Source: a virus
Direction: 5' to 3' (one strand)
DNA: 30,649 nt
Virus record (IMG/VR): IMGVR_UViG_3300037487_000750
Span: 1 to 30,649 of that record
This document shows, one piece after another, positions 1,974 through 30,103 of this stretch. A program made the position numbers and the translations under genes. Numbering within the stretch: the stretch's first letter is position 1; each line of letters starts with the position of its first letter. The notes below the pieces were generated by a model. It was not told the origin of the DNA and ran no database searches. It worked only from the letters and a program-made list of their open reading frames with translations.

Positions 1974-1981
1974 ATATTAAC
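1974..1981 (-). promoter_or_regulatory. Intergenic GTTAATAT element upstream of scaffold gene
   Basis: The sense strand reads TTGTTAATATTA, 17 nt before the ATG at 1956. It is one of eight same-strand copies found in gene gaps, possibly a late promoter element or a leader signal (see findings). Confidence 0.45.
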
Positions 1982-2007
1982 AATATCACTACTAAAAGTA
2001 GTTATTT

Positions 2008-5100: not shown

Positions 5101-5890
5101 AACCTACCGAAGAACTATTACTCGCTATGTTATTACTTTGAGTTGCATCTGTTTGAAATACTGATGAACTTAATGTATTTATATTTGATTGTAATGTAGA
5201 AGAACTAGCATTCAATTGAGCATCTGTTGCGTATGTTACATCTAATGAACTACTCCAACTTTCTAAACTATCTAATCTGTTATCTACCGATGAACTAAAT
5301 GAATTAAATGTAGATGATGATACAAAACTACCTGTTAAGTTTGCACCATATACATTACCTTCTGCTCTTATATCACCCGATGCAGATATGTTACCATTTA
5401 CACTTACCTTACCTGTCACATATTGATTACCAACAAAATAATTATCTTGTGATAAACTTGCTTTACCCGCTACCGCTGTATCATTACTTTGTGTATACTG
5501 ATTAAACTTTAATTCATCTGCTGTAAATCTATTACTAACATTTGTATTAATTGTTGCTTGGTCACTAAATCCAACATAAACACTTTGAGATAATGTGTTA
5601 ACACTACCCGTACTTGCTTTTCCGTTTATATTAGATTGTAATACAGAAGAACTTGTATTTAATTGTGCAACAGTTGCAAAGTTAGTTACTAATGAAGAAC
5701 TGAAATCTTCTAAGTCATTTAATTGAGATTGGAAAGATGATGATAATGAATCTACTTGTGTTTGTAGAGCCATAGAATCAACACTTTCAGAATTAAACCC
5801 TCTTAACAATGCAGGTGTAATATAGCCTGTTGTATTGTTAGGAAAGTTTGTATTATTTAATTGTTGTAATTGTTGTTTAGTTAAACTCAT
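2186..5890 (-). CDS. Large tail fibre / structural adhesin (1234 aa)
   Basis: 1234 aa, very rich in Ser, Thr, Gly and Asn. The N-terminal 300 residues carry repeated helical modules (for example VTNFATVAQLNTSSSVLQSN and VTYATDAQLNASSSTLQSN). Next come beta-repeat units of the form TTGSNTFTGxQT (about residues 390 and 550), a long beta-helix-like Asn/Ser/Thr stretch (570-870), further SGSLxVTGSSTFNGN units and a compact C-terminal tip ending GDTDIVAFMIINPS. This layout is that of trimeric fibre or spike proteins that recognise the host surface. It shares modules with the fibre at 25227-26960. It lies between a Cys-rich small gene and the scaffold gene, away from the other tail genes. Confidence 0.75.
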   Translation of the reverse strand: MSLTKQQLQQLNNTNFPNNTTGYITPALLRGFNSESVDSMALQTQVDSLSSSFQSQLNDLEDFSSSLVTNFATVAQLNTSSSVLQSNINGKASTGSVNTLSQSVYVGFSDQATINTNVSNRFTADELKFNQYTQSNDTAVAGKASLSQDNYFVGNQYVTGKVSVNGNISASGDIRAEGNVYGANLTGSFVSSSTFNSFSSSVDNRLDSLESWSSSLDVTYATDAQLNASSSTLQSNINTLSSSVFQTDATQSNNIASNSSSVGLLQTFSGSQYKADSASFSSRILAITGSSIDTGSLVTTSSFNAYTSSNDSKVNSLIAATASYVTSAITGSSLITASVSQSTITFTKGDGSTFNIVVADVSGSAGNFVTTASFNAYTSSQDFKNTTFATTGSNTFTGQQTLSNTGDLQFPLQIISGGIRIDDPNTDWMIWNSTANGGLKRSNTADLELLAQSASLNIRNDAGRVYISGSQILINDVDFIPFSSSLDSRINGLAISGNILVVQDEGTILGPATSMDFIGSGVTATISAGTASITITGGGGSIDTGSFATTGSNTFTGNQTIEGAIVSNPTTAVTKLFSQAFVSGAVQLNITASNAISQSNLVLVGTPLLASSTLTGSIIISGSNNILLNPVRTNTLATSFRFGYIGGSGNFVGTIPTLNTGSLVNPTMGNNQLNGAVTLTFNTSSTLANPTFNTNQIVGSTQINHQSGSAAFISNIVMNNGFTSTANTTTLSLNSTISGNLVASFGGVTLNHNSSSILYSSNIGGGISVTNNYSSSVSTTVDNVSVQGNLFTGTGHTLLVSGSNTSIRRTFNHNIIVGSTNAISSDFSGSSGGHLVATAVIGQNLIVSASGTSTTVGGGAFFGRYNDVTNMYADSGKMVFSVGTGTSTSNRKTALSVDSSSVVNVSGSLSVTGSSTFNGNMVVTGSLTASGTINGTTINNGDVTGSTFLATSNGTTAFIYNQQSTGSVAGVYNTNYGKDGLQVYQYQGQPYAFNVILTANQIAAYTGSEFQWGLQTNGTLSLPGGGSTYFAMSSGSTITGSGGGANKVGLDYLETAMIMDFKADTAFNRKVYVDKGMYVSQSVGGGKPALIVNGTNAASNLAIVATGSVNITGSLTLNGQTGFASLDSNTFTNTQIVSSSIYIAPNNNNNQLYLPSGSNKQTGLATLDGGNPGTVTVSNTNVTANSIIMLTKQTYNHPQGQGVSISSKGSGTFTITSNHNGDTDIVAFMIINPS

Positions 5891-5902
5891 TGTATTACTC
5901 TT

Positions 5903-6184
5903 TTATTGTGTATTTTCGTTATCGAATCCATCTGAATATCCTAATGAGAATGCTCCTCTCTGATTGAAATTTGCAACTCCTTCTATCACACCGATTCCTT
6001 GCTCCATTAATGCTCCGTTACAACAATCCACGTGATATATATCAGCGTGTAAACAAAGACATCCTCTCCTACTATTTTTAGGTGAAGATAATCCTTGTGT
6101 TGCTCCTATATAGATTCCACTATTGTTTTCTCTATTAACTGAGTATCTAAGATTACCATTTCTACTATTACTCCAAATGCCCAT
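5903..6184 (-). CDS. Cys-rich conserved phage protein of unknown function (93 aa)
   Basis: 93 aa. The centre has a Cys/His cluster, GCLCLHADIYHVDCCNG (about residues 41-57), followed by a QGIG motif, which could bind a metal or form disulfides. I recall similar short proteins with a CLC...YxxxCCxG...QGIG pattern beside tail or fibre genes of Bacteroidota phages, but I know no function for them. The gene ends 12 bp before the large fibre start and is preceded by a copy of the intergenic GTTAATAT element. A virion-associated or fibre-linked role is an inference from position only. Confidence 0.75.
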   Translation of the reverse strand: MGIWSNSRNGNLRYSVNRENNSGIYIGATQGLSSPKNSRRGCLCLHADIYHVDCCNGALMEQGIGVIEGVANFNQRGAFSLGYSDGFDNENTQ

Positions 6185-6200: not shown

Positions 6201-6208
6201 ATATTAAC
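6201..6208 (-). promoter_or_regulatory. Intergenic GTTAATAT element upstream of 93-aa gene
   Basis: The sense strand reads TTGTTAATATTAAAAC, 16 nt before the ATG at 6184. It is one of eight same-strand copies in gene gaps, and its spacing matches the copies before 1956 and 30047. Confidence 0.45.
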
Positions 6209-6228
6209 AACTGATGATTACATTATAA

Positions 6229-6501
6229 TCAATTCATTTTTTTAATACTTTCTTTGTGTAATAAGTTTTCTAAATGATTTCTATCTGCTTTGTATGCTAA
6301 TAACAATAAACACTTCTCTAATGGTTCTTTTACTACTTCATCAATATATCTAATATCACCATTAGCTAAATCTACAACTGCTGTATAACTTCCCCACTTC
6401 TTTCCAAAATTGATTTGATATTCGGAGGAAACCCCATCTCCTTCGTATAGTTCAGGATACCTTTCAACAATTCCTTTGACAAATTGATAAAAAAAAACCA
6501 T
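6229..6501 (-). CDS. gpT-like reading frame, reached by -1 frameshift or internal start
   Basis: This second frame overlaps the end of the 206-aa gene by 130 bp. From an internal ATG at 6501 it gives 90 aa (MVFFYQFVKGIVERYPELYE onward), including FGKKWGSYTAVVDLANGDI. It looks protein-like and ends in KESIKKMN. The frame can also be entered from the upstream gene by a -1 shift on the 9-T run at 6497-6489, which would make a 254-aa fusion (168 + 86 residues), as in the lambda G/GT tail chaperones. A GTG at 6537 is a further possible start. The choice between internal start and frameshift cannot be settled here. Confidence 0.65.
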   Translation of the reverse strand: MVFFYQFVKGIVERYPELYEGDGVSSEYQINFGKKWGSYTAVVDLANGDIRYIDEVVKEPLEKCLLLLAYKADRNHLENLLHKESIKKMN

Positions 6502-6993: not shown

Positions 6994-7212
6994 TTATGCT
7001 TTGTATGTTTTATTTGTGAACATTAAACTCATCTGTGCTAATCTTTGTGATAAGTTAATTACTTTCTTTTCTTCGTTTTCTAATTTGGCATTCATTGCTA
7101 TTACTCTTGCATTTAATTCAGAGTTAACTTCTAATAATTCGTTTGCCATTTCTAAGACCTGAATAATATCATCTTCAGTAAATTCTTTTCCTTTAATTTC
7201 TATTGTATTCAT
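6994..7212 (-). CDS. Small coiled-coil protein downstream of TerL (72 aa)
   Basis: 72 aa, acidic at the N-terminus and almost entirely helical. The segment from about residue 15 to 65 (ILQVLEMANELL-like pattern, then LNARVIAMNAKLENEEKK) has heptad spacing typical of a coiled coil. Its start overlaps the TerL stop by one base (TAATG) and its stop precedes the next ATG by one base, so it is translated as part of the packaging/tail-chaperone run. I do not recognise the family. A packaging accessory protein is possible from the context, but no motif supports it. Confidence 0.75.
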   Translation of the reverse strand: MNTIEIKGKEFTEDDIIQVLEMANELLEVNSELNARVIAMNAKLENEEKKVINLSQRLAQMSLMFTNKTYKA

Positions 7213-8378
7213 TAGTATTTAATTTTACCTATTGTAATTGCGTATTTACCTTTACTCTTTGCCTTCTCACTTAACTTCATCATACAACAATAACGTGCTG
7301 CATCTATTAAGTGGTCTAAACCTCCTTCAGGATTATCAGTTGTATATCCATGCTTATCACTTGCGTATTGATAACCATACATCTCATTGATAAGATTCTG
7401 ACTTGTTTTTAATATGTGTAACTTATGATTCTGCATTACACTAATACCAAACTTAATACTATCCTTACCCTTTACTACCGGCTTAATATTAAATCCACTT
7501 CTATATATCTCTTCAATAAGACGAGGTTCTGCACTATCACCCCATATCTCTTCACTCTTTGTTATATCTAACTTTTTTAGTTTCTCTATTATATCTGATG
7601 TTACTAATCCTTTCTCATAAATTAATTCTTCTAAATATAAATCATTGCCACTCTTATATACCGCTACTAATGCCGTTGGGTCATTACTAAATCCAAAATC
7701 TATTCCAAACCCTACAAACTCTGCTTCGTATGTATCTACTATATCAAATTGGAATATTGCCTTATCGTTTAGTGCAAATTCACCTTTACCATATATCTGC
7801 CATTTCTTTGGTGAGGTATGTTCTAAATCCTCAATTGCTTTAATAATTTCTTTTTCTAAGTATGGGTTATCTCTATACGTTGTTATGAATCTTTCACAAT
7901 CTTGCATTTGTCTAATCCAATGATAGGGTGATATGGTAGGGTTGTATGCGAGTATGATACGATTAGTAGTTCTAATAGATAACTGAAAATAAGATTCTTC
8001 ATCCACTTCACTTGCTTCATCAATAAAAAGTATATCAGATTTAATACCGCGTAACTTATCGGCATCATCAGTAGAGAGGAATTGAATAGAACTATCGTAC
8101 AACTTATAGACCCTGTCAGTAATATTAAAGTTTTCATCTTGCCAAATATCGATTGATTTTAAAATATCTGTGAAATCTTTTATCACAGTTCTTTTAAGTG
8201 AAGGAATTGTTTTTCTTACTATTGTAATTGTTTGTGGTGATTCTAATGCCTGAACTATTATCCATTGTAGTATTGCGTATGTTTTACCACTTCTAGTTCC
8301 ACCTATGTGCTGAGTGATTCTACTCTTTGCATCTAAAAGATGTTCAAATGTTATGGTAGTATTAATCTCTAAGTTCAC
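7212..8378 (-). CDS. terL: Terminase large subunit
   Basis: 388 aa. It is the DNA-packaging motor ATPase and the nuclease that cuts concatemers. Walker A is GGTRSGKT (residues 26-33) and Walker B is DILFIDEA (about 115-122). The C-terminal RNase-H-like nuclease shows GIDFGFSNDPTA (about 225-236, catalytic Asp227), GDSAEP (280-285, Asp281) and GLDHLIDAARY (353-363). This is the PBSX-type (Terminase_3) arrangement, somewhat short for the family but with all motifs intact. The start overlaps the small-subunit gene by 17 bp, as is common for TerS-TerL pairs. Confidence 0.95.
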   Translation of the reverse strand: MNLEINTTITFEHLLDAKSRITQHIGGTRSGKTYAILQWIIVQALESPQTITIVRKTIPSLKRTVIKDFTDILKSIDIWQDENFNITDRVYKLYDSSIQFLSTDDADKLRGIKSDILFIDEASEVDEESYFQLSIRTTNRIILAYNPTISPYHWIRQMQDCERFITTYRDNPYLEKEIIKAIEDLEHTSPKKWQIYGKGEFALNDKAIFQFDIVDTYEAEFVGFGIDFGFSNDPTALVAVYKSGNDLYLEELIYEKGLVTSDIIEKLKKLDITKSEEIWGDSAEPRLIEEIYRSGFNIKPVVKGKDSIKFGISVMQNHKLHILKTSQNLINEMYGYQYASDKHGYTTDNPEGGLDHLIDAARYCCMMKLSEKAKSKGKYAITIGKIKY

Positions 8379-8664
8379 TACCTGTTCGGTTTACATTAAC
8401 ATTTATCTGCTGTATTCTTTGATTAATCTCAGCTTTCATTTCTGTTCTACTTAACTTTGGCATTACATATTCCATTAATTGTAAAGCGAGTTGTATTGCC
8501 TTCTCAGGATTATCTTTTCTTATTCTATCTAAATCTTCAGAAATAGTATCTAATGTTTTATTAGCTGCTCTTGCTAAAGTAAGTTTCATTTGTTCGGTAG
8601 ACCTATTAACTGCTCCTACCGGCCTTCCCTTACTCAATGTATGTCCTTTCTCAAACTTTGCCAT
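8362..8664 (-). CDS. terS: Terminase small subunit (DNA-binding), putative
   Basis: 100 aa, basic N-terminus. It starts MAKFEKGHTLSKGRPVGAVN, the kFxkGxxxxxGRPxGxxN opening common to small terminase or DUF5681-like proteins, followed by helices (residues 25-75). The likely role is recognition of phage DNA and loading of TerL, which it overlaps by 17 bp. The start ATG at 8664 lies downstream of a hairpin that contains one copy of the GTTAATAT element. The assignment combines the motif with its position in front of TerL. Confidence 0.8.
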   Translation of the reverse strand: MAKFEKGHTLSKGRPVGAVNRSTEQMKLTLARAANKTLDTISEDLDRIRKDNPEKAIQLALQLMEYVMPKLSRTEMKAEINQRIQQINVNVNRTGSELRD

Positions 8665-8680
8665 ATATTTCCATTATTTT

Positions 8681-8708
8681 ATTGGTATATCTATATATAT
8701 TAACCAAT
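8681..8708 (-). promoter_or_regulatory. Inverted repeat with GTTAATAT element before the terminase operon
   Basis: ATTGGT (8708-8703 in sense) pairs with ACCAAT (8686-8681) around an AT-only centre that includes the GTTAATAT core (8697-8704). It fills the gap between the Mom-like gene stop at 8709 and the TerS start at 8664. It could be an operator or a leader hairpin at the switch from early to packaging genes. There is no T run, so it is not a standard terminator. Confidence 0.4.
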
Positions 8709-9464
8709 CTATTCAAAAAAGTCATTAACCTTATGTTTTACTTCTATACTTGGTTTATGTAATAATTCGATAAACTCATCATAGTTATCACCCGTATCTC
8801 CATATCCTTTCTTAATAATTAAATGTTCTTTTATATCAGTTTGTTTTGGATAAGGTAAATGTGGAACTATTAAATTACGAATTTGTTTTCTATCATAAAA
8901 GTAAAAGTATCTATATTGCCCACCTCTTACTAAATACAATGGAGTTCCGTATATACTCTCTAATAACTTTCTATCTGTCTTACCATGCTTATGCCACAAA
9001 GATACATTATGCATTCTATTACCTTCTTTACTTAACCACAATCCATTTGATGTAGTAGAAAATCCGGTATATATAAAATTAGTTGCTTGGTATATAGTTC
9101 CTACCTTACCCATCATACCATCAGCAAAACTAATTATCCATTTGATTTTTGGATTATTTTTCTTTACCCACTTCAAACATAGGGAAATACTTTTACTCTC
9201 TGCATTTGCTCCTAATTCATCATCTATCCATAATCTATTTAATTCTAAGTATTCATCACTTTGTGTATTGGTTACCCATCTACATGTATCTTTAGGTCTT
9301 ATACCATATCCAAATTGTGCTACACCTAATAATCTATGTTCAACAAATATACCTAAATGATATACTACTCCTTTTGCTACTGACCTACTATAATGATTTT
9401 TACATATTAAGTCATTTGCTAACTTTGGCTGTATTTGTTGAATGTAGATATTATTTATTTCCAT
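8709..9464 (-). CDS. Mom-like DNA-modification protein, GNAT-type acetyltransferase fold
   Basis: 251 aa. The pattern NHYSRSVA (23-30), YHLGIF, LLGVAQFGYG (45-54), YLELNRLWIDDEL (72-84), NAESKSIS (87-94), IISFADG (110-116) and VGTIYQATNFIYTG (121-134) matches the phage Mom-like family, whose Mu member modifies adenine in phage DNA to resist host restriction. The acetyltransferase-like core spans about residues 15-140; the rest (YGTPLYLVRGGQYRYFYFYD) is conserved-looking but of unknown role. It is the last gene before TerS, so phage DNA could be modified before packaging. The substrate and product in this phage are not known. Confidence 0.7.
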   Translation of the reverse strand: MEINNIYIQQIQPKLANDLICKNHYSRSVAKGVVYHLGIFVEHRLLGVAQFGYGIRPKDTCRWVTNTQSDEYLELNRLWIDDELGANAESKSISLCLKWVKKNNPKIKWIISFADGMMGKVGTIYQATNFIYTGFSTTSNGLWLSKEGNRMHNVSLWHKHGKTDRKLLESIYGTPLYLVRGGQYRYFYFYDRKQIRNLIVPHLPYPKQTDIKEHLIIKKGYGDTGDNYDEFIELLHKPSIEVKHKVNDFFE

Positions 9465-9606
9465 TACTACCGCTTTGTTCTAACATTCTCTTTTGGAATT
9501 CATTGAAATCATTTTCCATCTTTTTGATTTCTTCTTTAGTGAAACTAGCTTTAAACATTTCTGCTATCTCTTTGATTTGTTCATTTAATTTTTCTGTGTT
9601 TGTCAT
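9451..9606 (-). CDS. Small charged helical protein (51 aa)
   Basis: 51 aa: MTNTEKLNEQIKEIAEMFKA then a Lys/Glu-rich helix and a Ser/Gly/Asn tail. It overlaps the sigma-like gene by four bases (ATGA) and the Mom-like gene start by 14 bp, so three genes are interlocked and probably translationally coupled. I do not recognise it. A small partner or inhibitor of the sigma-like protein would fit the overlap, but that is speculation. Confidence 0.7.
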   Translation of the reverse strand: MTNTEKLNEQIKEIAEMFKASFTKEEIKKMENDFNEFQKRMLEQSGSNGNK

Positions 9607-10151
9607 TCGAATGGGTTTTGTATATTATTTTTTAAATGTTTTTTTACTTTCTTTACTGCTAAGAATGTAGTAGATTTACTTATACCAATATCTCTACTTA
9701 CTTCATCTAATGTTTTTTCTGAGAACCAATAGTGTTCATATATCATTGCATTACTCCAACCCTTTCTTTTCTTCATACTATCTAATTCTTCTCTTACTTC
9801 ATCATATGCTATCTGAACCTTTGTATCGTACTCTATATTATATTCTTCATCTATTGTATCCCAATTTTCCGCTAATGGACTAACCTTACCATTTCTCTTT
9901 AACATATTCAATGCTCTCGTCTTTAAAAAGAAATAGATGTAGTGTAGGTTATAACTTTCTTTGTAAAATAGTTTAGGATTACATTTCTCTGCTAAGTAAA
10001 GGTATAAATCACTTACTACTTCTTCTGTAACATTTTTATTTTTACACATATTGAGTGTAATATTATTTATCCACTCTCCATGCATTCTATATAGTGTATC
10101 CAATCTTTGATTGCATTGTGATTGAATACTTTGTGTTACTTCGTTTTGCAT
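9603..10151 (-). CDS. RNA polymerase sigma-factor-like protein (ECF type)
   Basis: 182 aa from the ATG at 10151; an in-frame TTG at 10169 is a less likely start because it overlaps the previous gene. Residues about 30-90 resemble sigma region 2 (VTEEVVSDLYLYLAEKCNPK, then YIYFFLKTRALNMLKRNGK). Residues about 120-175 resemble region 4 with a helix-turn-helix (TLDEVSRDIGISKSTTFLAVKK). This is the size and layout of an ECF sigma factor, though diverged. It precedes the modification and packaging genes, so it may direct the switch to late transcription. A region-4-only regulator or a plain helix-turn-helix DNA-binding protein are the alternatives. Confidence 0.55.
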   Translation of the reverse strand: MQNEVTQSIQSQCNQRLDTLYRMHGEWINNITLNMCKNKNVTEEVVSDLYLYLAEKCNPKLFYKESYNLHYIYFFLKTRALNMLKRNGKVSPLAENWDTIDEEYNIEYDTKVQIAYDEVREELDSMKKRKGWSNAMIYEHYWFSEKTLDEVSRDIGISKSTTFLAVKKVKKHLKNNIQNPFE

Positions 10152-11736: not shown

Positions 11737-11768
11737 TAAATATACTCAAAAAATCTCAAACAAACAAA
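11737..11768 (-). promoter_or_regulatory. Bacteroidota-type promoter for the GIY-YIG gene
   Basis: Sense TTTG (11768-11765), 20 nt spacer, TATATTTA (11744-11737). This fits the -33 TTTG / -7 TAnnTTTG consensus of Bacteroidota with the last base changed. It lies just downstream of the terminator at 11783-11813 and 24 nt before the ATG at 11712. Confidence 0.6.
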
Positions 11769-11782
11769 TAATTTAGGACAAT

Positions 11783-11813
11783 AAAAAAACCCTACCGAAG
11801 AACTCAGTAGGGT
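11783..11813 (-). terminator. Strong intrinsic terminator
   Basis: The sense arm ACCCTACTGA (11813-11804) pairs over ten bases with TCGGTAGGGT (11798-11789, one G-T wobble), with a 5-nt loop, followed by a run of seven T (11789-11783). It ends transcription from the DUF1376-like gene and from the candidate RNA, and insulates the GIY-YIG promoter. Confidence 0.9.
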
Positions 11814-11896
11814 TGAGAGAGTATTATTTTCCTCTCTATATATTGTATAGGAGTCGGCCCCAAAATGGCAATAAAGTTACCGACTGATATATTAAC
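11783..11896 (-). ncRNA. Candidate structured non-coding RNA
   Basis: This non-coding interval between the DUF1376-like stop (11918) and the GIY-YIG promoter starts at a GTTAATAT element (11896-11889) and ends in the strong terminator. It holds three consecutive hairpins in sense: AGTCGG/CCGACT (11885-11880 with 11857-11852), AGAGAG/CTCTCT (11837-11832 with 11821-11816) and the 10-bp terminator stem. No ATG-initiated ORF is present. It may be a separate small RNA of about 100 nt or a structured 3' UTR; the sequence does not decide. Confidence 0.4.
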
Positions 11897-11917
11897 AAAT
11901 ATAATTTATTTTTTCTA

Positions 11918-12391
11918 CTAAACCAAATTATCTAATTCATTTATTTCTTTATCCGATGGTTTAATTTTCATTTTATCCTCTATACTATATACAGTATTAC
12001 TAGAAGTATTATTAATAGAAGTATCAGTTACAGTTCCAGTTACAGTTACAGTTTCCATACGATTAACATATGATTTAGATAAGTTAATCATATCTACATT
12101 ATCTTTCTTTGTTCTATTGTTTCTTCTACTATCAGCATATGCTTTTCTTCTTTCACTTTCTACTTTCAGTTTTAAGTTATAGTATTTGCCATCAGATAAT
12201 TTTTGAAACTTATTGAATACTTTACTATCAGTTCCATCTAAAATTGCTTTGAAATCTTCTTCTAATAGAAATCCCTGCTGATGTTGATAACACAGCAAAG
12301 TAATATACTTTCCTTTTTGTTCGTAATTCATTGTTAGTGTTCCACTCAGAAAATCTGATGTGTAAAATAATACTGCTGGGTCTTTTGCCAT
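11918..12391 (-). CDS. DUF1376-like replisome-organiser N-terminal domain protein
   Basis: 157 aa. Residues 1-80 (KDPAVLFYTSDFLSGTLTMN, EQKGKYITLLCYQHQQGFLL, EEDFKAILDG) match the DUF1376-type winged-helix domain found at the N-terminus of phage replication initiators. The C-terminal half is basic, then Thr/Ser-rich (a short VTVTGTVTD repeat) and acidic, with no DnaD-like domain visible, so the protein is shorter than full replisome organisers. Its likely role is origin binding and recruitment of the host helicase with the AAA+ ATPase at 12912-13718. It has its own promoter at 12434-12465. Confidence 0.7.
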   Translation of the reverse strand: MAKDPAVLFYTSDFLSGTLTMNYEQKGKYITLLCYQHQQGFLLEEDFKAILDGTDSKVFNKFQKLSDGKYYNLKLKVESERRKAYADSRRNNRTKKDNVDMINLSKSYVNRMETVTVTGTVTDTSINNTSSNTVYSIEDKMKIKPSDKEINELDNLV

Positions 12392-12478: not shown

Positions 12479-12925
12479 TTATTTTTTATATTCAAAACTC
12501 CATCCACATTTAGTTTTTGGTTGATTACCTTTTATTATTTTTCTTATAATAGGTGCCTGTATTTTCAAATCTCTTTCACATTCTCTAATTGAGATATACT
12601 CCCAACACTCCTCAGTATTTTGGTTATATGCAATAATTCTTTTGCCATACTTTTGTTGATTTGCTTCATTACCTAATTTAGAATGTTCTTTTAATTTACC
12701 ACTATCTCTTGTAACTACACCACCTACTTTACCACCTAAAGAAGCACCAATCTTTTGGATTTCTTTCATATGACCATTCTTAGCATTCTTTTTACCTTGA
12801 TTTTTGTTTACAATAGTAGCAGCTAATTTACCATTAGTTTGTTTTACAATTTTTTCATGTGAAAGTTCTGATAATTTATCATAATCTATTGTAGATTTTT
12901 TCCATTGTATATTATTCATAATCAT
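12479..12925 (-). CDS. NUMOD-type DNA-binding protein, nuclease-less homing-endonuclease relative
   Basis: 148 aa (start ATG at 12925 or the next ATG at 12919; both overlap the ATPase gene). The N-terminal half is basic with Gly/Lys-rich NUMOD3-like repeats (KNAKNGHMKEIQKIGASLGG). The C-terminal part, about residues 94-147 (GKRIIAYNQNTEECWEYISI through KTKCGWSFEYK), fits the NUMOD1 modular DNA-binding domain of homing endonucleases. I see no HNH or GIY-YIG catalytic motif. It may be the DNA-binding remnant of a homing nuclease inserted between two replication genes, or a domesticated regulator. Confidence 0.65.
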   Translation of the reverse strand: MIMNNIQWKKSTIDYDKLSELSHEKIVKQTNGKLAATIVNKNQGKKNAKNGHMKEIQKIGASLGGKVGGVVTRDSGKLKEHSKLGNEANQQKYGKRIIAYNQNTEECWEYISIRECERDLKIQAPIIRKIIKGNQPKTKCGWSFEYKK

Positions 12926-14550: not shown

Positions 14551-14658
14551 TTTTTAAGGGTAAAAACTAACACCCATTAGTAATCAATGAGTTATGCATA
14601 GTAAAAAACCTTAATATAAGGTAATATATACAAATTTATTTATATATGATATATGCAC

Positions 14659-14684
14659 AAAAAAACCCTTTTTTAAGGGGTTTA
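14659..14684 (-). terminator. Terminator ending the structural operon
   Basis: In sense, AAACCCCTT pairs with AAGGGTTT (one bulged C, loop AAAA) and is followed by a run of seven T. It lies 78 bp after the last structural-operon gene (stop at 14762) and before the early promoter, dividing the genome into two transcription blocks. Confidence 0.75.
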
Positions 14685-15475: not shown

Positions 15476-15799
15476 TTAGTTAATTGTATAAGTTTTACCA
15501 TCATATTGAAATGATGATATATTATCGTATGTTAATGTTCTCCATCCTTCGATTGTAGTAGGGGCTACTAAATTTACCATACCCTCTTCTGATTTTGTGA
15601 CTGATTGGTCTGAGTTGGAAAAAAATTGTCCCCAATACATATCGTAAGATGCTCTATGTGTAGGAGAAACTGCTGTTCTCCACTTAATGAACATTGTATT
15701 ATTACTATTCGTTGATTGTAACATTTGATAAAATTGTCCAAAGGTTACTGATGGTAATGCAAACTTTTCTAAATTCTTATGTACTTTATTTGGATACAT
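15476..15799 (-). CDS. Hypothetical structural-region protein (107 aa)
   Basis: 107 aa, aromatic-rich: MYPNKVHKNLEKFALPSVTF, then THRASYDMYWGQFFSNSDQS and a beta-rich C-terminus (GWRTLTYDNISSFQYDGKTY). It overlaps the end of the XkdF-like protease gene by 14 bp and is followed by the 100-aa Cys-module gene. I do not recognise it. It has no signal peptide or membrane segment and no muramidase or amidase motif, so it is not an obvious lysin. Confidence 0.7.
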   Translation of the reverse strand: MYPNKVHKNLEKFALPSVTFGQFYQMLQSTNSNNTMFIKWRTAVSPTHRASYDMYWGQFFSNSDQSVTKSEEGMVNLVAPTTIEGWRTLTYDNISSFQYDGKTYTIN

Positions 15800-16838
15800 C
15801 TTTCTTTTTCTTTTTAGCTACTTCGCCAGGATATGTTGATGCGATAGATGGTTGTGTTCCTTCTAATTCTTCTGCAACATCTTTACCTTCTCTTAATACA
15901 CCTAATTCTCTTAGTTTACTTTCTGCCCATCTTTTGCCAGCTAATCCACCCCATAACATAAAACTAATATATCCACAATCGTTTGTATCTGCACCTGTGT
16001 AATATGTTTCTGCTCTACTTAGGTATGAATACATTCTTCTTACTGTATCAATACTGATATTCTTTCTTTGTGCTAATTGTTGTGCTCTTATCTTTCCTAC
16101 CGGAGTTGCACATTTGTTACCATTTAATATATTGTAATCAATTCCCTTTTGTGCGTTATTACTAACTGCATCAGGATAATCATTAATACTTTCCATTTCA
16201 ATTCTTTGCTTGGATTTGTATCTTTTATCTTTTTTGATTAATGCTTTTATTTCTGATAAGAATAATTCTGCTTCATCTTCTGTAAATTCTTCAATAGATT
16301 TTTCCATTGATAATTTTAAATCTGAAACGTGATGTTCAAATAGGCCTTCAATACTAAATCCTTTGAATACACCATCTTTTACATCTTGCCATACTTTAGG
16401 ATTACCACTTACATCATACACACCGAACCATGTTCCTTTTGGTAATGTATATCCGTATATATTAGATTTATCTTTTGAACTCATTTCAATTAACCAACTT
16501 TCTGTTAAGTTAATTCCACTAACCTTTTTATCATGCTCTATTGTAACTGCATCGTTGTATTTGTTCTTCATAAACCTTCTACTAATCTTCTCAATTGTTT
16601 CAGGTGTAAAGTATACATAATAAGAGTTACCTAATCCATCTAATCTTAATATCTTTTTATTTGGAATTAATAAAGGTCCCGCTACTAACATTTTTTCTTC
16701 ACTAACAGCTTGGAAGTTTATCTCTTTACCAAAATAAAAAAAATCTCTTTCTATTGCCGGAGAATCTACAAAAGATGTTGCAAATACACCATCTTCTTCA
16801 TCCACTAAAATTAATTCGTATAATAATTCTTTTTCCAT
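15786..16838 (-). CDS. XkdF-like prohead serine protease with C-terminal conserved domain
   Basis: 350 aa. The N-terminal part (about 1-170) follows the XkdF-like phage protease pattern: an AVTIEHDKKVSGINLTESWL stretch (97-116, with His102) and GFSIEG (160-165, Ser162) as likely catalytic residues. It would cleave the scaffold and capsid during head maturation. After an acidic linker, a second domain (about 213-318; NNAQKG, NKCATPVGKIRAQQLA, SYLSRAETYY, WGGLAGKRWAESKL) is a conserved module I know from other phage head proteins, function unknown. Its place after the tape measure, far from the capsid gene, is unusual. Confidence 0.75.
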   Translation of the reverse strand: MEKELLYELILVDEEDGVFATSFVDSPAIERDFFYFGKEINFQAVSEEKMLVAGPLLIPNKKILRLDGLGNSYYVYFTPETIEKISRRFMKNKYNDAVTIEHDKKVSGINLTESWLIEMSSKDKSNIYGYTLPKGTWFGVYDVSGNPKVWQDVKDGVFKGFSIEGLFEHHVSDLKLSMEKSIEEFTEDEAELFLSEIKALIKKDKRYKSKQRIEMESINDYPDAVSNNAQKGIDYNILNGNKCATPVGKIRAQQLAQRKNISIDTVRRMYSYLSRAETYYTGADTNDCGYISFMLWGGLAGKRWAESKLRELGVLREGKDVAEELEGTQPSIASTYPGEVAKKKKKDVSK

Positions 16839-16841
16839 ATG

Positions 16842-16849
16842 ATATTAAC
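16842..16849 (-). promoter_or_regulatory. GTTAATAT element directly before the protease start
   Basis: Sense ATTGTTAATATCAT then ATG: the core is only 3 nt from the start codon. The 18 bases ATTGTTAATATCATATGG are identical to those at the 49-aa gene start (18599). Confidence 0.5.
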
Positions 16850-16869
16850 AATTTTATTAAGTAAAATGG

Positions 16870-18450
16870 TTATCCACCACTTAATGTTGCTGCTCTATTA
16901 ACTCTTCTATCTAATGCTTGTTGTGAAGAAACTTGTTGAGATACTACATATGCCTGAATTGGTTTACTTGCATTTGATAAAGTTTCTGCTAATTGTGATG
17001 TAGGATTTTGTCCACCACTCGTTGTTACTTGTGGTGCTTTCATTGTTGCTATTGTTGGAACTGATGGAGTAGCTATACTTGCATTCATTGATGGAGTGCT
17101 TTTTGCACCTGGCATCTTAGGTAATTGTGTTGATAAGATTTTCTTAACATTTAATAAACCTGCTACTATTACTGTTCCAGCTGCTATTGCACCAAATGGA
17201 GGTGGATATGCTGCCAATGCTTTATTCGCACCCGCATATGTATCCATTACTGCCTGTGCTACTGCTAATGCTTTCCCGGCTGCCGTATTTTCACCAACTA
17301 AACTTGCTACTGCTCCTAAACCATCTGAAATAATTCCTATCTTATCTTCAGTAGTTAATTTAACATATTCCTTTTCTTGCTCAGCACCTGCTTTAGTTGC
17401 ATCTGCTTGCGCAATTACCGATGATACTTTTAATCCTTTTACTATTCCCTCTTGCTCTTCAACTGTATTAATTCTTAGATTTTTAATCTTTTCTGCCAAT
17501 GCCTTTTGAGCTGCTTCTTCTGCTAAGTTTGTATCTATTTGAGTTTGTAATGTATCCTGCTTAATTACAGTTAAATCTAATTTTGCTCTATCCTTCTTTC
17601 TTTTCTCATATTCTTTTATGATACCATCTAATCTTTCTTGCTCTGCTCTTAATGCTTCTGCTTCTTGCTCTGCTTTTTCTTGTAGTTCTTTTGCCCTTCT
17701 TGCCTTTCTATCTGCTTCTGCTTTTACCGCTGCATCTCTTTGCATTTGAATAACCTTTGCCATATTATCCAAATCATCTTGTGCTGCTTGTAATGCGTTC
17801 TTAGATGCTTCTTGTGCTGCCGTATCAAACTTTTGTATTTCTGATTTTGCAAACCCTAACTTTTCTGCGAAATATTGAAATCCTTCTGCAACTTTATCAA
17901 TAATTTTTGCCAAAGCTTCAAATATAGGAACTGCAACAGCTGATATTATTGTCATCACAGGTGCTAATAGTTTACTAAATGCATCTGTTACTTTATTTAA
18001 TACTGCCTGTCCTTCACTTGTCTTAGATAATGCTTCTTTCATTGCCGCAAATGCTGCAATTATTAAACCTACAACACCTAATGCCACAGTTGTTGCTGTA
18101 CCAAATGTTACAATTGCATCTTGTGCAGATTTTAATCCACCACCTAACTTACCAATAGGTCCAGGTAATGCCGCTATCTGGTCACCAAATTGTTTAGATT
18201 TAAAGTTTACTCTATCTTGAGAATCTTGTAAATCATCTAATTTATTTTTTAAATCAGTAAATTCTTTAGTATTACTTTTACCCTGGTCTTCTAATTTCTG
18301 TAATTCAACGGTAGTTTCTCTAATTTTAGATTTAAGTGATGTGAATTTGCCACCGGTCTTATCCGCTTCATCCCCTAATTCTTCAACCTCACCTTTACCT
18401 TTTACTTCGGTTTCAATTACTGCTTTATATGTTGTAGTATTATCTGCCAT
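16870..18450 (-). CDS. Tail tape measure protein
   Basis: 526 aa. The N-terminal coiled coil (about 35-85, TVELQKLEDQGKSNTKEFTD) is followed by hydrophobic segments (about 110-140, ALGVVGLIIAAFAAM, and a second run at 155-180, LLAPVMTIISAVAVPIFEAL). Then come a long Ala/Glu/Lys-rich helical region (about 215-340) and a Ser/Thr/Pro-rich C-terminus. This is the standard tape-measure layout; it sets tail length and carries DNA-ejection functions. At roughly 0.15 nm per residue the tail would be near 80 nm. It is short for the family but plausible for a 30-kb siphophage. The start overlaps the stop of the 49-aa gene (TAATG). Confidence 0.85.
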   Translation of the reverse strand: MADNTTTYKAVIETEVKGKGEVEELGDEADKTGGKFTSLKSKIRETTVELQKLEDQGKSNTKEFTDLKNKLDDLQDSQDRVNFKSKQFGDQIAALPGPIGKLGGGLKSAQDAIVTFGTATTVALGVVGLIIAAFAAMKEALSKTSEGQAVLNKVTDAFSKLLAPVMTIISAVAVPIFEALAKIIDKVAEGFQYFAEKLGFAKSEIQKFDTAAQEASKNALQAAQDDLDNMAKVIQMQRDAAVKAEADRKARRAKELQEKAEQEAEALRAEQERLDGIIKEYEKRKKDRAKLDLTVIKQDTLQTQIDTNLAEEAAQKALAEKIKNLRINTVEEQEGIVKGLKVSSVIAQADATKAGAEQEKEYVKLTTEDKIGIISDGLGAVASLVGENTAAGKALAVAQAVMDTYAGANKALAAYPPPFGAIAAGTVIVAGLLNVKKILSTQLPKMPGAKSTPSMNASIATPSVPTIATMKAPQVTTSGGQNPTSQLAETLSNASKPIQAYVVSQQVSSQQALDRRVNRAATLSGG

Positions 18451-18599
18451 TATTTTTTAGATTTCCAAATTCTTTTAATTTGTTTTTTAGCATCACCAAA
18501 TGATGTAGGTATTCCATAAATTCCTTTTGCTATATCTATTTTTTTAGATACACCATAGAAATCATTTGTATTTAGTAAATCAATTATATTCTTAACCAT
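18450..18599 (-). CDS. Small basic protein before the tape measure (49 aa)
   Basis: 49 aa: MVKNIIDLLNTNDFYGVSKK, then IDIAKGIYGIPTSFGDAKKQ and IKRIWKSKK. It is bracketed by a GTTAATAT element 3 nt before its ATG and by a one-base overlap with the tape measure start, so translation of the two is probably coupled. Lambda-like phages place tail chaperones here, but this is too short and dissimilar to call one. I do not recognise the family. Confidence 0.65.
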   Translation of the reverse strand: MVKNIIDLLNTNDFYGVSKKIDIAKGIYGIPTSFGDAKKQIKRIWKSKK

Positions 18600-18602
18600 A
18601 TG

Positions 18603-18610
18603 ATATTAAC
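18603..18610 (-). promoter_or_regulatory. GTTAATAT element directly before the 49-aa gene
   Basis: Sense ATTGTTAATATCAT then ATG, 3 nt from core to start codon, in an 18-base match to the copy at 16842-16849. Confidence 0.5.
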
Positions 18611-18638
18611 AATATTATGTTATTAAATTAGTGATGGG

Positions 18639-19172: not shown

Positions 19173-21185
19173 TTAGCAGAAAAATCCTGTTCCGTATCCT
19201 ATTTCGCCGGTTGTGAAATTTATATCATACACCTCATTACCACCACCATATGTAAAATATCTATACCCAGTAATTGGTGTAATACCATATTGGTCGTAGT
19301 ATGCAATTTGTCCTGGTGATTCCAAACCATCTGCAGTATACATATCATATTCAATAGGACTACCACAAGCTGAACCTGCATAAGTTTCACCTGTAAAGTG
19401 CATAGATTGTACAAGGTATTGTGTTACTGTTGGATTTAATCCACCAACACTGCCACTCAATCCTGTTCCTGCTATTCTAAGTAATGGTGAACTTGCAAAT
19501 GTTGTTTTAACTTCAAATGTTCCTTGTGAGAAAAAGTTTGTTGTATCTGTATAATAACTCTTACCATATTCTCTATTTGCACCTTTACTAAATTGTTGAG
19601 AAATAAAATCACCATCTAATGTATCACCAAAATTTAAATTATTTACTGCAAAGTTATTTGCCGGAGTTACTGATATTTTTTCATCTAAGTTAATAAATTG
19701 ATTGAAATCTTTTACTTCACCTCTATAATACCAATCATTAAATGTTTCTACTATAAATTGATTTGGTTTAGTTTTATTAGGATAAATTACTAAATTAAAT
19801 TTCTTTTGTATACCTAATAAAAAATCTACTAATTTAATACCATTCGTACCAAAGGGCATATTAGATGGAATATCCATAATTCTACCATCAGCCGCTGAAT
19901 TAACTTGTGTTATTTCTAAAAATGATTTAGTTGTACTTAATGGGTCTAATGTTACAACAGGTAAAGATGCAACAGATGCTGGAAAATTAGGAGATTGTCT
20001 TATTTGAAAATAATAATTACCAATCGGTATATTATTAAAATTAAATTCACTTGCTAATTGATATGTTGTATTAATACTACCATTTCTACTTTGTTGTAGT
20101 TGGTCAAAGAAATTAATATAAGATATCACTGCACGAGTTCCAGAAGCCGCTGAACTTCCTGTATCTAACATTCTTATCTGCCATGTTCCATTTGCAGAAA
20201 GTGTACCCGGCATATTGTTTGCCGAACAACTTACATTAATATTAATATTCAATGCTCCTCTTAGATTAGTTCTTTGTTCAACTCTATATGCACCATTCTG
20301 ATAAAAGTTTTGTGGGTCAGAAAATTCATTAAACCAAGGTAAAGTTACCCAACTACCCGATGGTAAATTAACATCTGTCATTCCACTTCCACTAATTGCA
20401 CCTATTTTTATCTTACCATACGTTTCTAAATCAACACCACTATATTCAGGATATTTTAATGAATTATTACAAACCATATATACATCATCTAAGAATGATT
20501 GTTGCCAAAATGATGATGAGTAGGTATATCCTGTTTGTTCAAATATTGCATCCCATACTGCTTTTACTCTAATTGCAGGTTTAAAATTTTGAACAGTTAA
20601 TGCACCCTCCTGGTCATCCATACCATATAATTCATATGCACCTTGTGTAAATGCATATGCACTACCATAATCTGCTAAGGGATAAACAATATCCCCACCA
20701 AATAAATTACGATTCCAACTTTCTGAAATATTATTATAAGATGAAGTATGATTGAATGCTGATAATGTTGTTAAATCTGTTAGATATAATCTATTAATTT
20801 CTCTACCAAATGATGAAAGAGTACCATAAATAGTTACCTCATATGAATCAATAAATTTATTTGCTAATACATTTACTTTGTTTAATTGTAAGTATCCTTG
20901 TGAAAGATACACAGAATCAAAATCAAAGTATGCTGGAACCTTTATATTGGTTGCAAATAGAAAAGGTGAATCAATACTTATATCGTAAACATGCTCAAAA
21001 AATGCGTTGTTTGTCTTCGTTCCAGGTAGGGTTATTGTGCGAGTGAAATCTGATGGTAATACACCGATATCAAATAGACCTGTTGAGTTATTTGAAATCT
21101 GAATATCTTCATCTTCAAAAAGGTCTAATTCTGTTCCATTTGCTACTAATCTAAAAGTAAACGCCTGAGTAGATATAATTCCCAT
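19173..21185 (-). CDS. Large tail-tip/baseplate protein (670 aa)
   Basis: 670 aa. The N-terminus (FRLVANGTELDLFEDEDIQI then NSTGLFDIGVLPSDFTRTIT) has the lfD......sD.t.ti.lPgT..N pattern known to me from baseplate proteins of Bacteroidota phages. The rest is beta-rich with many aromatic residues; a region near residue 450 (GIKLVDFLLGIQKKFNLVIY) resembles hub domains. It lies between the tape measure side and the 388-aa tail protein. Its start overlaps the upstream stop by one base (TAATG). A role in the tail tip is likely, the exact one unknown. Confidence 0.65.
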   Translation of the reverse strand: MGIISTQAFTFRLVANGTELDLFEDEDIQISNNSTGLFDIGVLPSDFTRTITLPGTKTNNAFFEHVYDISIDSPFLFATNIKVPAYFDFDSVYLSQGYLQLNKVNVLANKFIDSYEVTIYGTLSSFGREINRLYLTDLTTLSAFNHTSSYNNISESWNRNLFGGDIVYPLADYGSAYAFTQGAYELYGMDDQEGALTVQNFKPAIRVKAVWDAIFEQTGYTYSSSFWQQSFLDDVYMVCNNSLKYPEYSGVDLETYGKIKIGAISGSGMTDVNLPSGSWVTLPWFNEFSDPQNFYQNGAYRVEQRTNLRGALNININVSCSANNMPGTLSANGTWQIRMLDTGSSAASGTRAVISYINFFDQLQQSRNGSINTTYQLASEFNFNNIPIGNYYFQIRQSPNFPASVASLPVVTLDPLSTTKSFLEITQVNSAADGRIMDIPSNMPFGTNGIKLVDFLLGIQKKFNLVIYPNKTKPNQFIVETFNDWYYRGEVKDFNQFINLDEKISVTPANNFAVNNLNFGDTLDGDFISQQFSKGANREYGKSYYTDTTNFFSQGTFEVKTTFASSPLLRIAGTGLSGSVGGLNPTVTQYLVQSMHFTGETYAGSACGSPIEYDMYTADGLESPGQIAYYDQYGITPITGYRYFTYGGGNEVYDINFTTGEIGYGTGFFC

Positions 21186-22351
21186 TACATAATTAATTTA
21201 TAAGATTGACCTAAGTTAAATTCAAATTGATATTGAATTACTTTATCTACTACACCTGTTTTAAATTGTAAATCAGATGTTGCAATACTTAATGGTCTTA
21301 CTGCTGCAGTTGATTCATTATATACCCAATATATCTCATCACTAACCATAAGTTGTTTTAAGATATCATTGTAATCTTCATCTAACCAATCTGTATTTAC
21401 TTGTAGAGTTTGTTTAGTATCTACAATATAATCTAACATTGCACTATCATATGCTTGATAACTAAATGTAGAACTTTCCCAACTACCTAATTGTGGTTGA
21501 TATGTTCTCTTAGTTGTGGATATACTTTGTCTATTAATCATATTAAAGTTTAACCAATCAAATTGTCCAAATCTATTTTTCCATTTAATTCTTATGTTAG
21601 GATATTTCTGTTCACATACTACATCATATCTTACTTTACTACCTAATGCAGTACCACCATTATATGGTTGTATTGTATAGAAAGTTAGACCTGTTGTAGA
21701 TAAAGGAAATTCACTTTGTAATGGTCCTATTGGATAATCATCTATTTGACCTGATGATGATTCTGATGATGATAAGAAATATGTTCCATTACCTGTACTA
21801 CCGCTATAAATTATTCTATCTGCAATCACTCCACCTAATGTTCCTACTGCCACTCCACTCGTACCTGTATTAGTAACGAATGCACTTCTTGACACCGGTC
21901 CATCAGTTAATAAAGGATAGTATTGAGATAGTGTATTTAGTTCTTGTCCTATTGTTTCAGGAAATAAACCATAACCATCTAATGCTTTATACATTGATGA
22001 TTTAACATGCGAACCTGTTACGAATAGTGAGCCACTTAAGTATTGTGTATAAAAATCACATGCAAAGTAAACTACATTTGATGGATTTTGTTGTAATAAA
22101 TCTGTAAGAGTTGAATTGATAATTCTATTCAAATCAAAAATACCAACATTAGAAGTGTTAGGATATTTTGAAATTGTATAATCTGATAAAGAGCCTGAGT
22201 TCAAAACCGAACCTGTCCAATAATATAAATCACCAACATACTGAAATGATGATGAAGTTAAAAGGACAAGATTACTCTCTGCTAACGTAAATATGATAGG
22301 AGATTGTGCTAATGAACTTGTTGCCGGAGTTTGTGTTATTGATAATGCCAT
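21185..22351 (-). CDS. Tail structural protein, distal-tail-like (388 aa)
   Basis: 388 aa. The N-terminus is Ser/Thr-rich and beta-like (SIIFTLAESNLVLLTSSSF-type pattern, residues 18-37). The centre has IRIKWKNRFGQFDWLNFNM (about 264-282), a segment I recognise from conserved tail proteins of Bacteroidota phages, followed by a beta-rich C-terminus ending YQFEFNLGQSYKLIM. It lies in the tail block between the gp10-like protein and the 670-aa protein. A distal tail or baseplate component fits; no enzyme motif is visible. A GTTAATAT element stands 21 nt before its ATG. Confidence 0.6.
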   Translation of the reverse strand: MALSITQTPATSSLAQSPIIFTLAESNLVLLTSSSFQYVGDLYYWTGSVLNSGSLSDYTISKYPNTSNVGIFDLNRIINSTLTDLLQQNPSNVVYFACDFYTQYLSGSLFVTGSHVKSSMYKALDGYGLFPETIGQELNTLSQYYPLLTDGPVSRSAFVTNTGTSGVAVGTLGGVIADRIIYSGSTGNGTYFLSSSESSSGQIDDYPIGPLQSEFPLSTTGLTFYTIQPYNGGTALGSKVRYDVVCEQKYPNIRIKWKNRFGQFDWLNFNMINRQSISTTKRTYQPQLGSWESSTFSYQAYDSAMLDYIVDTKQTLQVNTDWLDEDYNDILKQLMVSDEIYWVYNESTAAVRPLSIATSDLQFKTGVVDKVIQYQFEFNLGQSYKLIM

Positions 22352-22372: not shown

Positions 22373-22380
22373 ATATTAAC
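22373..22380 (-). promoter_or_regulatory. GTTAATAT element upstream of the 388-aa tail gene
   Basis: Sense TTAATGGTTAATATCTATATAAACAA in two overlapping parts (TTAATG then GTTAATATCT, followed by ATATAAACAA). It stands 21 nt before the ATG at 22351, and the ATATAAACAA leader also follows the copy at 30065-30072. Confidence 0.5.
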
Positions 22381-22389
22381 CATTAAGTA

Positions 22390-22752
22390 TTAAAAAGTAT
22401 TTGATGTAGTAAATCCTCTCATTGATTTATCTATTCTTTCCATTGCAGAATCTAATACGGTTACTACAACTGTTTTATTAACATAATCATCAACTAATGC
22501 TTTGAACTCATCTGCATTTGCTGCATTGGTTGCAAAAGGTCTTGCTTCCATTCTAAATGTACCGAAGTTTACATACACACCATAATCAACTGAATTCAAA
22601 TCAAATACTGCACCGAAATCACCAATTTTATTGTATTTAACATTTATTGAATCTCTTAACTTACCAGTCTTAATTGCACGAGTAGGTCCTCTTTGCACAT
22701 TTAATTGTGCTATATTTTTGAGAGTAGTTGATATTTGATTTAGGGTTGCCAC
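22390..22752 (-). CDS. HK97 gp10-like head-tail joining / tail completion protein
   Basis: 120 aa. The pattern KTGKLRDSINV (28-38), then YGVYVNFGTFRMEARPFATN (about 57-76) is the HK97-gp10-like signature (TG.L..si...... Y....e.GT..m.aRPF). The family sits at the neck or the tail end and helps join tail to head. The start is GTG, overlapping the stop of the glycine-rich gene as TAGTG, the only GTG in such a junction here. It is placed among tail genes rather than after the connector, which is unusual but still consistent with the family. Confidence 0.7.
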   Translation of the reverse strand: MATLNQISTTLKNIAQLNVQRGPTRAIKTGKLRDSINVKYNKIGDFGAVFDLNSVDYGVYVNFGTFRMEARPFATNAANADEFKALVDDYVNKTVVVTVLDSAMERIDKSMRGFTTSNTF

Positions 22753-28375: not shown

Positions 28376-29686
28376 CTATTTTTGTTTTATAATTTCGTAT
28401 TCTTGTTCAAAGAAAGTTGGTTTAACAAATGCTTCAGGTGTTGAAGTAATTTCATTATCAGTTTCTACACTACCATCATCTATTGTTGCGTTACTATCTT
28501 CTTCAACTGTAGAAGGATTTTCCATTGAATCATTTGTATCTTGTTGTACTTCTTCAATAGTTTGACCAGTTTCTTCTGCTGTTTCTGAAAGAATTACTAA
28601 TGGAGTTAATTGGTCAAAGTATAATTCTAAGTTATTATATCCACCTTCACTCAATGCCATATCTAATGCGTTTAAGATAATGTTTTGGAATGGTGCAATT
28701 GTCATTGTTTGTAAGATACTAAACGCCGTTTTCATTTCTTCACTTTGAGAACTGAAACCATTTCCTTTATCTCTGATACCAAATAAAAGAGGAGAGGTTA
28801 CTCTATGTGCCACCAATATTCTATCTTGTATATATTCTGCAACGTACTGATACTTTTCATGTAAGTTATCAATCTGAATTATATCTAATGTAGGTTTGTT
28901 TGCTGCATCATCATTAAAAGATACCATAAATCTACCTGCGTTATCTGTTCCTGTGAACTTAGCCTGAAGTAAATCTTCTATTGTTTGTCTTTCTTCAGGT
29001 GCTGGAACTCCATTGTTGAAGTTAATCATTACTGAAGGTAAGAAACCATTTGTAATATTATTATAATGTAAGTTAGAGATTTCTCCTTCACTTAATCCAA
29101 ATTGTAATGCTGAAATCCAATCAGGTAGTGAATAGTAATACAAACCTGGTGTATAATGTTTAATATAAAGGATTTCCATTTTATCTTTAGAAGTTCCAAA
29201 AGCAGGAATAGATTTCTTATTCTTTACTGCTTTATTATCATTCCAATCAGTACAATAGTAATACGTTTTTATTTTTGGTTCATTGTTTAACTTCTCTGCT
29301 CTTAAGTTCTGAACAGGTATGTGATACATCTTTATAATCTTAGTATGTTCATCATTCCAATATACTTGGTAAGATGCATTTCCGTATAGTTTCAAATCAA
29401 ATGATACTCTCTTAGTTTCTTCTTGTGGAATTACTTTAGATAAAATCTGATTAAAGTTTTCATCCTTACTATATAATCCTTTACCAAATATTAAATCAGC
29501 CAATCCTTCGATACATGCTGCATTAGTTGTACTACAATTATATGCCGTAGTTACTGCTCCAAAGAAATCATCTTGTCCGTATGCACCGAATGGAACCCAT
29601 TGATAGCGAGTTTTTGTATCTTCACTTACCATTGGTAACCCATTATTTTGAACGTTTACAATACTAAATTTTGTTGTTTGCTTCAT
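28376..29686 (-). CDS. Portal protein
   Basis: 436 aa. It forms the dodecameric DNA channel in the capsid vertex. The domain order fits phage portals: an N-terminal wing (residues 25-130), a clip/stem region around IYIKHYTPG-like segments (about 165-230) and a long helical part (VAEYIQDRILVAHRVTSPLL, about 278-297, then GIRDKGNGFSSQSEEMKTAF, about 299-318) that resembles the crown/stem helices. The C-terminal about 75 residues are acidic and disordered-looking. It is followed by a connector gene and preceded by an unknown 119-aa gene in a TAATATG junction. The assignment by pattern and position is strong. Confidence 0.85.
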   Translation of the reverse strand: MKQTTKFSIVNVQNNGLPMVSEDTKTRYQWVPFGAYGQDDFFGAVTTAYNCSTTNAACIEGLADLIFGKGLYSKDENFNQILSKVIPQEETKRVSFDLKLYGNASYQVYWNDEHTKIIKMYHIPVQNLRAEKLNNEPKIKTYYYCTDWNDNKAVKNKKSIPAFGTSKDKMEILYIKHYTPGLYYYSLPDWISALQFGLSEGEISNLHYNNITNGFLPSVMINFNNGVPAPEERQTIEDLLQAKFTGTDNAGRFMVSFNDDAANKPTLDIIQIDNLHEKYQYVAEYIQDRILVAHRVTSPLLFGIRDKGNGFSSQSEEMKTAFSILQTMTIAPFQNIILNALDMALSEGGYNNLELYFDQLTPLVILSETAEETGQTIEEVQQDTNDSMENPSTVEEDSNATIDDGSVETDNEITSTPEAFVKPTFFEQEYEIIKQK

Positions 29687-30064: not shown

Positions 30065-30072
30065 ATATTAAC
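30065..30072 (-). promoter_or_regulatory. GTTAATAT element upstream of the portal operon
   Basis: Sense TTAATTGTTAATATCATAT then AAACAATAG, 17 nt from core to the ATG at 30047. It shares ATTGTTAATATCATAT with the copies at 16842 and 18603. It stands just downstream of a strong terminator, a place where a new promoter would be expected. Confidence 0.55.
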
Positions 30073-30103
30073 AATTAAGTAGGAGAATATAACTAATATA
30101 CAT

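Follow-up and report, generated by a model that had tools for sequence, protein, structure and literature searches.

Repeated element and genomic setting

What role does a short sequence play that recurs, always in one orientation, in the gaps between the genes of a phage? The stretch of DNA analysed here, the window, is the 30,649 nt (30.6 kb) of IMG/VR virus record IMGVR_UViG_3300037487_000750, which is probably incomplete. It has a G+C content of about 31% (A+T about 69%), essentially all of its genes lie on the minus strand, which is the coding strand, and it encodes a portal, an S78/XkdF-type protease, a Terminase_3 type terminase, a capsid-like protein and a Mom-family protein. The host is likely to belong to the Bacteroidota, because gene starts are free of Shine-Dalgarno signals and boxes of the host type, TTTG-N19/20-TAnnTTT, precede the early genes. 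A near-identity search of phage records with the window returned no match, nor did Rfam and tRNA scans of it, and searching a genome collection with the portal for a host gave no relative. The 1,234-residue protein encoded at 2186-5890 is likely a tail fibre or spike. The Mom-family DNA modification protein (8709-9464, minus strand; PF25680, 2.2e-61) is encoded directly upstream of terS, and the product of 12479-12925 (minus strand) has a weak NUMOD/I-HmuI-like similarity, making a homing endonuclease possible.

A preliminary description had reported the 8-mer GTTAATAT in eight gene gaps, always in the direction of transcription, and both statements hold: all eight gap copies are sense (minus strand) and none is antisense. 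Within genes there are two more copies (2559 and 18772, both minus strand) and the plus strand has none, so that 8 copies in 1,359 gap bases (18 gaps) stand against 2 in 29,270 coding bases. Shuffling the gaps left a mean of 0.166 copies and a maximum of 3, and in 500 gap shuffles no 8-mer of any sequence occurred in eight gaps (maximum six); the result therefore withstands the post hoc choice of this 8-mer. Shuffling of the whole window gave 4.75 copies against the 10 found, and the enrichment is thus specific to the gaps. The clustering that the preliminary description judged to be above chance is accordingly real, and A+T content does not explain it. Its match of 18 bases between the copies at 16842 and 18603, extending to 16 bases at 30065, was likewise right, as were its distances to the ATG of 3, 3, 16, 17, 17, 21 and 32 nt at seven sites. 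It had named equal density inside coding regions on both strands as evidence against a signal; the element was found to be very rare in coding DNA and on the antisense strand.

The motif search that it proposed, over gaps including those of related phages, returned the element as the top motif. For this, 80 related viral loci were gathered via the portal, and expectation-maximisation was run on 189 non-redundant gaps from starts that were random data stretches and seeds. The best de novo motif, TTGTTATTAT, occurs in about half of the gaps. The closest relatives carry GTTAATAT before the same genes as the window; with greater divergence its place in the homologous gaps is taken by TTGTTAAATA, GTTATATA, GTTATTA or GTTTTTA. 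Exact copies of GTTAATAT in the relatives have no overall strand bias (56 vs 61), a count that misleads because diverged relatives use other variants, as the homologous gaps settled. Counting strand-biased k-mers gave no clear signal, being swamped by A-rich sense strands.

Table 1. Predicted genes, promoters and RNA of the window discussed in the text
Feature	Coordinates	Strand	Details
Virion structural, capsid-like genes	255-1196 and 1222-1956	-	
Late promoter before 1222-1956 and 255-1196	1974..2004	-	TAACTACTTT 1995-2004, N11, TTGTTAATAT; predicted +1 1970
1,234-aa protein gene	2186-5890	-	C-terminal K1-lyase domain (PF24146)
Gene	5903-6184	-	
Late promoter before 5903-6184 and 2186-5890	6201..6231	-	TGATTATAAT 6222-6231, N11, TTGTTAATAT; predicted +1 6197
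terL	7212-8378	-	
terS	8362-8664	-	
terS/terL late promoter	8697..8727	-	TAATGACTTT 8718-8727, N11, TGGTTAATAT; predicted +1 about 8693
ECF-like phage sigma gene	9603-10151	-	182 aa; ATG at 10151; TTG-started ORF reaches 10169
Host-type promoter before operon 11712-8709	11737..11768	-	TTTG-N20-TATATTTA; kept in relatives
Structured RNA ending in terminator-like hairpin	11774..11885	-	z = -3.15 vs shuffles
Eighth GTTAATAT copy	11889-11896 (site 11889..11927)	-	no late upstream box
Host-type promoter in 395-nt gap	14631..14661	-	TTTG-N19-TAAATTTG
S78-type protease gene	15786-16838	-	
Protease-gene late promoter	16842..16872	-	TAACCATTTT 16863-16872, N11, TTGTTAATAT 16842-16851; predicted +1 16838, the A of the protease ATG
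Tape-measure-like gene	16870-18450	-	
49-aa gene	18450-18599	-	
Late promoter for 49-aa and tape-measure-like genes	18603..18634	-	TCACTAATTT 18625-18634, N12, TTGTTAATAT 18603-18612; predicted +1 18599, the A of the 49-aa gene ATG
Gene with late promoter upstream	21185-22351	-	
Late promoter before 21185-22351	22373..22403	-	CAAATACTTT 22394-22403, N11, TGGTTAATAT; predicted +1 about 22369
Portal gene	28376-29686	-	
119-aa gene	29688-30047	-	
Late promoter before 119-aa gene and portal	30065..30095	-	TAGTTATATT 30086-30095, N11, TTGTTAATAT; predicted +1 30061

Probable two-box promoters, predicted start sites and the eighth copy

When the sites are aligned on the motif alone, a conserved block, TTAACTAYTTTT, appears upstream at a spacing that hardly varies. 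In a model that left the spacing free, this upstream box, TAACTAYTTT, is separated from TTGTTATTAT by N11 in 78% of sites; the full promoter reads TAACTAYTTT - N11 - TTGTTAATAT - N3 - A(+1), and GTTAATAT is the core of its inner (-10 type) box. When the window and its close clade were excluded from training, the upstream box scored 5.5-13.3 bits at seven of the eight window sites (P 0.0005-0.05 each; joint P <= 0.0005), being weak at 6201 and at 18603 (P = 0.05 at the latter), and -4.4 bits at 11889. When the window was scanned with the two-box model, the seven best sense matches coincided with these sites; they precede virion or packaging genes only, and the same scan found no two-box site in the early region between 8709 and 14889. 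Over 860 kb, the matches of at least 17 bits comprise 136 in sense gaps (partly in-sample), 3 in sense coding DNA, 0 in antisense gaps and 1 in antisense coding DNA. In relation to ECF promoters, the family consensus TAACTA contains the -35 AAC, but AAC is intact in just two of the seven window sites; of the -10 CGT/CGTT the GTT is invariant, with a preceding C only in the cultured phage P12024S discussed below. The upstream box of the terS promoter sits within the coding end of the Mom-family gene. A weaker two-box site resembling a late promoter, GAACCATTAG-N11-TTGTTATTAG, lies at 6297-6306 (minus strand), some 90 nt upstream of the 6201 promoter and within a doubtful ORF.

Among the aligned sites, the fourth base after the ten-base inner box, the predicted +1, is A in 76%. 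Distances to the ATG fall into two classes, at least 12 nt (most often 15-19) or about 3, with none from 4 to 11; the short class has eight cases, six at 3 nt and the others at 2 and -1. Where the distance is 3 nt, the conserved A coincides with the first base of the ATG, so that some late mRNAs probably begin at the start codon itself. Misplaced gene starts are an unlikely explanation, since start codon and 3-nt spacing are kept in relatives, for the protease at 82% protein identity and for the 49-aa gene at 47-86%. Leaderless mRNA is a 5.5% minority in Flavobacterium psychrophilum (PMC9723704), and bacteria of this type evidently can use it.

The preliminary description treated the eight copies as one set; this stands for the seven before virion or packaging genes and fails for 11889, where it had overlooked the overlap with a host-type promoter just as it had missed the upstream box and the sigma factor described below. 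The 11889 copy overlaps, by one base, the end of TTTG-N20-TATATTTG (11896-11927), which fully matches the housekeeping promoter of Bacteroidota, consensus TAnnTTTG (PMC9723704). That -7 box, with TTTG about 20 nt upstream, is absent at all seven late sites. A late promoter at 11889 was rejected on this overlap and on the missing upstream box, and for the same two reasons the downstream RNA is assigned to host transcription; the site appears to be a host-type promoter with the 8-mer in common by coincidence. The RNA is also kept in relatives, where pair-preserving change is limited. GCCATTT is invariant in its first loop region and AATAATAC is conserved in the second hairpin, and the RNA is placed between the host-type promoter and the early operon 11712-8709, which contains the sigma gene. 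The gap holding the promoter at 14631 separates the upstream structural block from the early region.

An ECF-like sigma factor and its probable promoters across related phages

The sigma gene belongs to the early operon; it precedes terS by two genes and stands behind the host-type promoters. Its product matches TIGR02985 (9.6e-9) and TIGR02937 (1.3e-7), both below the curated cut-offs, and phrog_1740 (4.8e-7). For TIGR02937 the window protein and its P12024S counterpart gp33 reach 29-38 bits, less than the cut-off of 42.9, and the protein is therefore named ECF-like and not a family member. Sigma region 2 (PF04542) was weakly detected in nine of 14 members of the sigma family. The structural model is middling (pLDDT 66, pTM 0.43), and the ten best Foldseek matches to it are all ECF sigma structures; neither the sigma sequence nor its profile matched anything in a sequence search of the PDB. 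Homologues occur in 16 of the 32 long records of relatives; many of the other half are fragments, which may or may not explain the absence. Bacteroides phage BS162P3, which has a related terminase, has no annotated sigma gene near it.

The inner box varies between phages, and this variation was compared with that of the sigma in 13 related genomes, with sites picked by the upstream box and GTT alone and the other inner-box bases left free. Each genome uses one variant at nearly all its promoters: GTTAATAT in the window and one relative (G001), GTTAAATA/GTTATATA in eight genomes, GTTATTA in two (G008, G022) and GTTTTTA in two more (G021, G029). Between genomes, distance in the box correlates with that in the sigma region 2.3/2.4 segment (r 0.75), and with region 4 held constant the partial Mantel r is 0.68 (P = 0.0002), a procedure that reduces the effect of shared ancestry and does not remove it. 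Region 4 makes no further contribution (r = -0.10, P = 0.82). Across genomes the upstream box varies only slightly, as expected if a conserved region 4 reads the TAACTA box. The pattern suggests that, in many related phages, sigma factor and promoter signal changed together.

Among cultured phages the closest relative is Nonlabens phage P12024S (NC_018271, Inhavirus; portal 32% identical), whose ECF-like sigma gp33 is encoded just upstream of the terminase, the same position relative to it as in the window. GTTAMT occurs just upstream of eight P12024S genes, with the G exactly 11 nt before the ATG in six; at the seven sites apart from gp13, AAC lies exactly 21 nt before the G in six. The late genes are preceded by AACAAA...CGTTAATA. 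The upstream box differs from that of the window, where AAC and G are 22 nt apart, and nearly all P12024S promoters adjoin the ATG; transcription would start on or next to the start codon at most of its late promoters. Owing to the different upstream box, a scan of P12024S with the two-box model of the window family gave no clear sites, and those described here were found by reading the gaps. No description of P12024S promoters was found in the open-licence papers searched. Near 3000, 5385 and 23935 of P12024S, the sequence CAAATATA, located at the late upstream box or close to it, is TATATTTG on the other strand, there a host-type -7 box that faces divergent genes of the minus strand; at these places early and late promoters may be overlapping and mutually exclusive.

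Proposed mechanism, alternatives and significance

Taken as phage-specific late promoters, as the preliminary description had guessed, the seven sites (and not 11889) are well supported by the second box at fixed spacing, conservation in homologous gaps, rarity in coding and antisense DNA, the phage sigma and the co-variation of its region 2. We hold with considerable confidence that they serve the phage-encoded ECF-like sigma factor, and they are most likely read by host RNA polymerase carrying it. Host polymerase with the housekeeping sigma would read the host-type promoters and express the early operon including the phage sigma. Bound to the host core polymerase, the phage sigma would then recognise the TAACTA box through region 4 and the GTTAnnnn box through region 2, and this holoenzyme would start late transcripts about 11 nt past the G of the inner box. 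Most late genes would receive a leader of roughly 13-30 nt, and at two window genes and most P12024S late promoters the +1 would fall on or next to the A of the ATG, giving essentially leaderless mRNA. Sigma binding and dependence, transcription start, late timing and leaderless translation are all features that we infer from the DNA.

Alternatively, a regulator might bind a short element of this kind on the sense strand ahead of late genes, so that host polymerase with its own sigma, helped by a phage protein at an operator or activator site, would transcribe these genes; the scores of the sigma-like gene under curated cut-offs leave room for this. We regard it as unlikely, as two boxes at -35/-10 type spacing, an A at fixed distance and phasing to the ATG are promoter geometry, the seven sites have no host -7 box TAnnTTTG, and the inner box follows sigma region 2. 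The preliminary description had also offered a translation leader, and its operator and leader readings are both disfavoured by the variable distance to the ATG and the bipartite promoter geometry. The element is close to start codons, and Bacteroidota are without Shine-Dalgarno signals (PMC6847099), as might suit a leader or ribosome-binding signal in the mRNA; this was rejected because the distance to the ATG runs from 3 to 32 nt in the window and further in relatives, the second box is found some 20 nt farther from the gene, in part within the preceding one, and most genes internal to operons have no copy of the element before them, and we give this reading very little credence. Late promoters specific to a phage-encoded RNA polymerase, T7-like or multisubunit, are known in general, but a pair of boxes of which the upstream one carries AAC is consistent with a sigma-70 family factor, and the window and ten other records gave no RNA_pol (PF00940) match in a search without a working positive control; such a polymerase seems highly improbable here. 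Least credible of all is chance or simple A+T bias, which DNA of this composition invites and which is refuted by the shuffle tests, the antisense and coding controls, and conservation.

The closest worked-out case is Salmonella phage 7-11, in which the phage sigma SaPh711_gp47 works with the host core polymerase, early genes use host promoters and a bipartite GTAAtg-16-aCTA precedes late genes (PMC8948821). Its boxes and host phylum are other than those of the window, the system is proven by experiment there and predicted here, and the comparison covers promoter layout and mode of transcription. Phage phiEco32 likewise has a phage sigma, gp36, for its late promoters, but uses a single element, tAATGTAtA, with no -35 box; its middle and late starts lie 6-8 bp downstream of the element (PMC4331800, PMC8948821). 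Motif SM6 of F. psychrophilum is an example of an ECF sigma with Bacteroidota polymerase, and its -10 region has a conserved CGT, as in P12024S CGTTAATA (PMC9723704); SM6 belongs to a host regulon (secretion system, others), and the window inner box has TTGTT or TGGTT in place of CGT. By analogy, the window system would work like those of 7-11 and phiEco32, with different boxes, another host phylum and a subset of promoters fused to start codons. A prior description of this promoter class was not found in the open-licence papers searched.

Late transcription control in Bacteroidota phages is poorly described, and the window provides a concrete promoter model, a probable reading factor and a cultured phage for testing. 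On balance, and with some reserve, we favour the wider view that a widespread group of Bacteroidota phages carries co-evolving late sigma/promoter sets, candidates for orthogonality, with partly leaderless late virion mRNA. If so, inner box and sigma region 2 have switched jointly, a whole genome at a time, which would leave several sigma/promoter systems as candidates for mutual orthogonality, and late virion genes would be expressed from leaderless mRNA in part of the group and at most P12024S late promoters. The clade-specific pairs of sigma and box would form a natural series on the joint change of a sigma factor and its promoter set, and could serve a phylum with few genetic tools.
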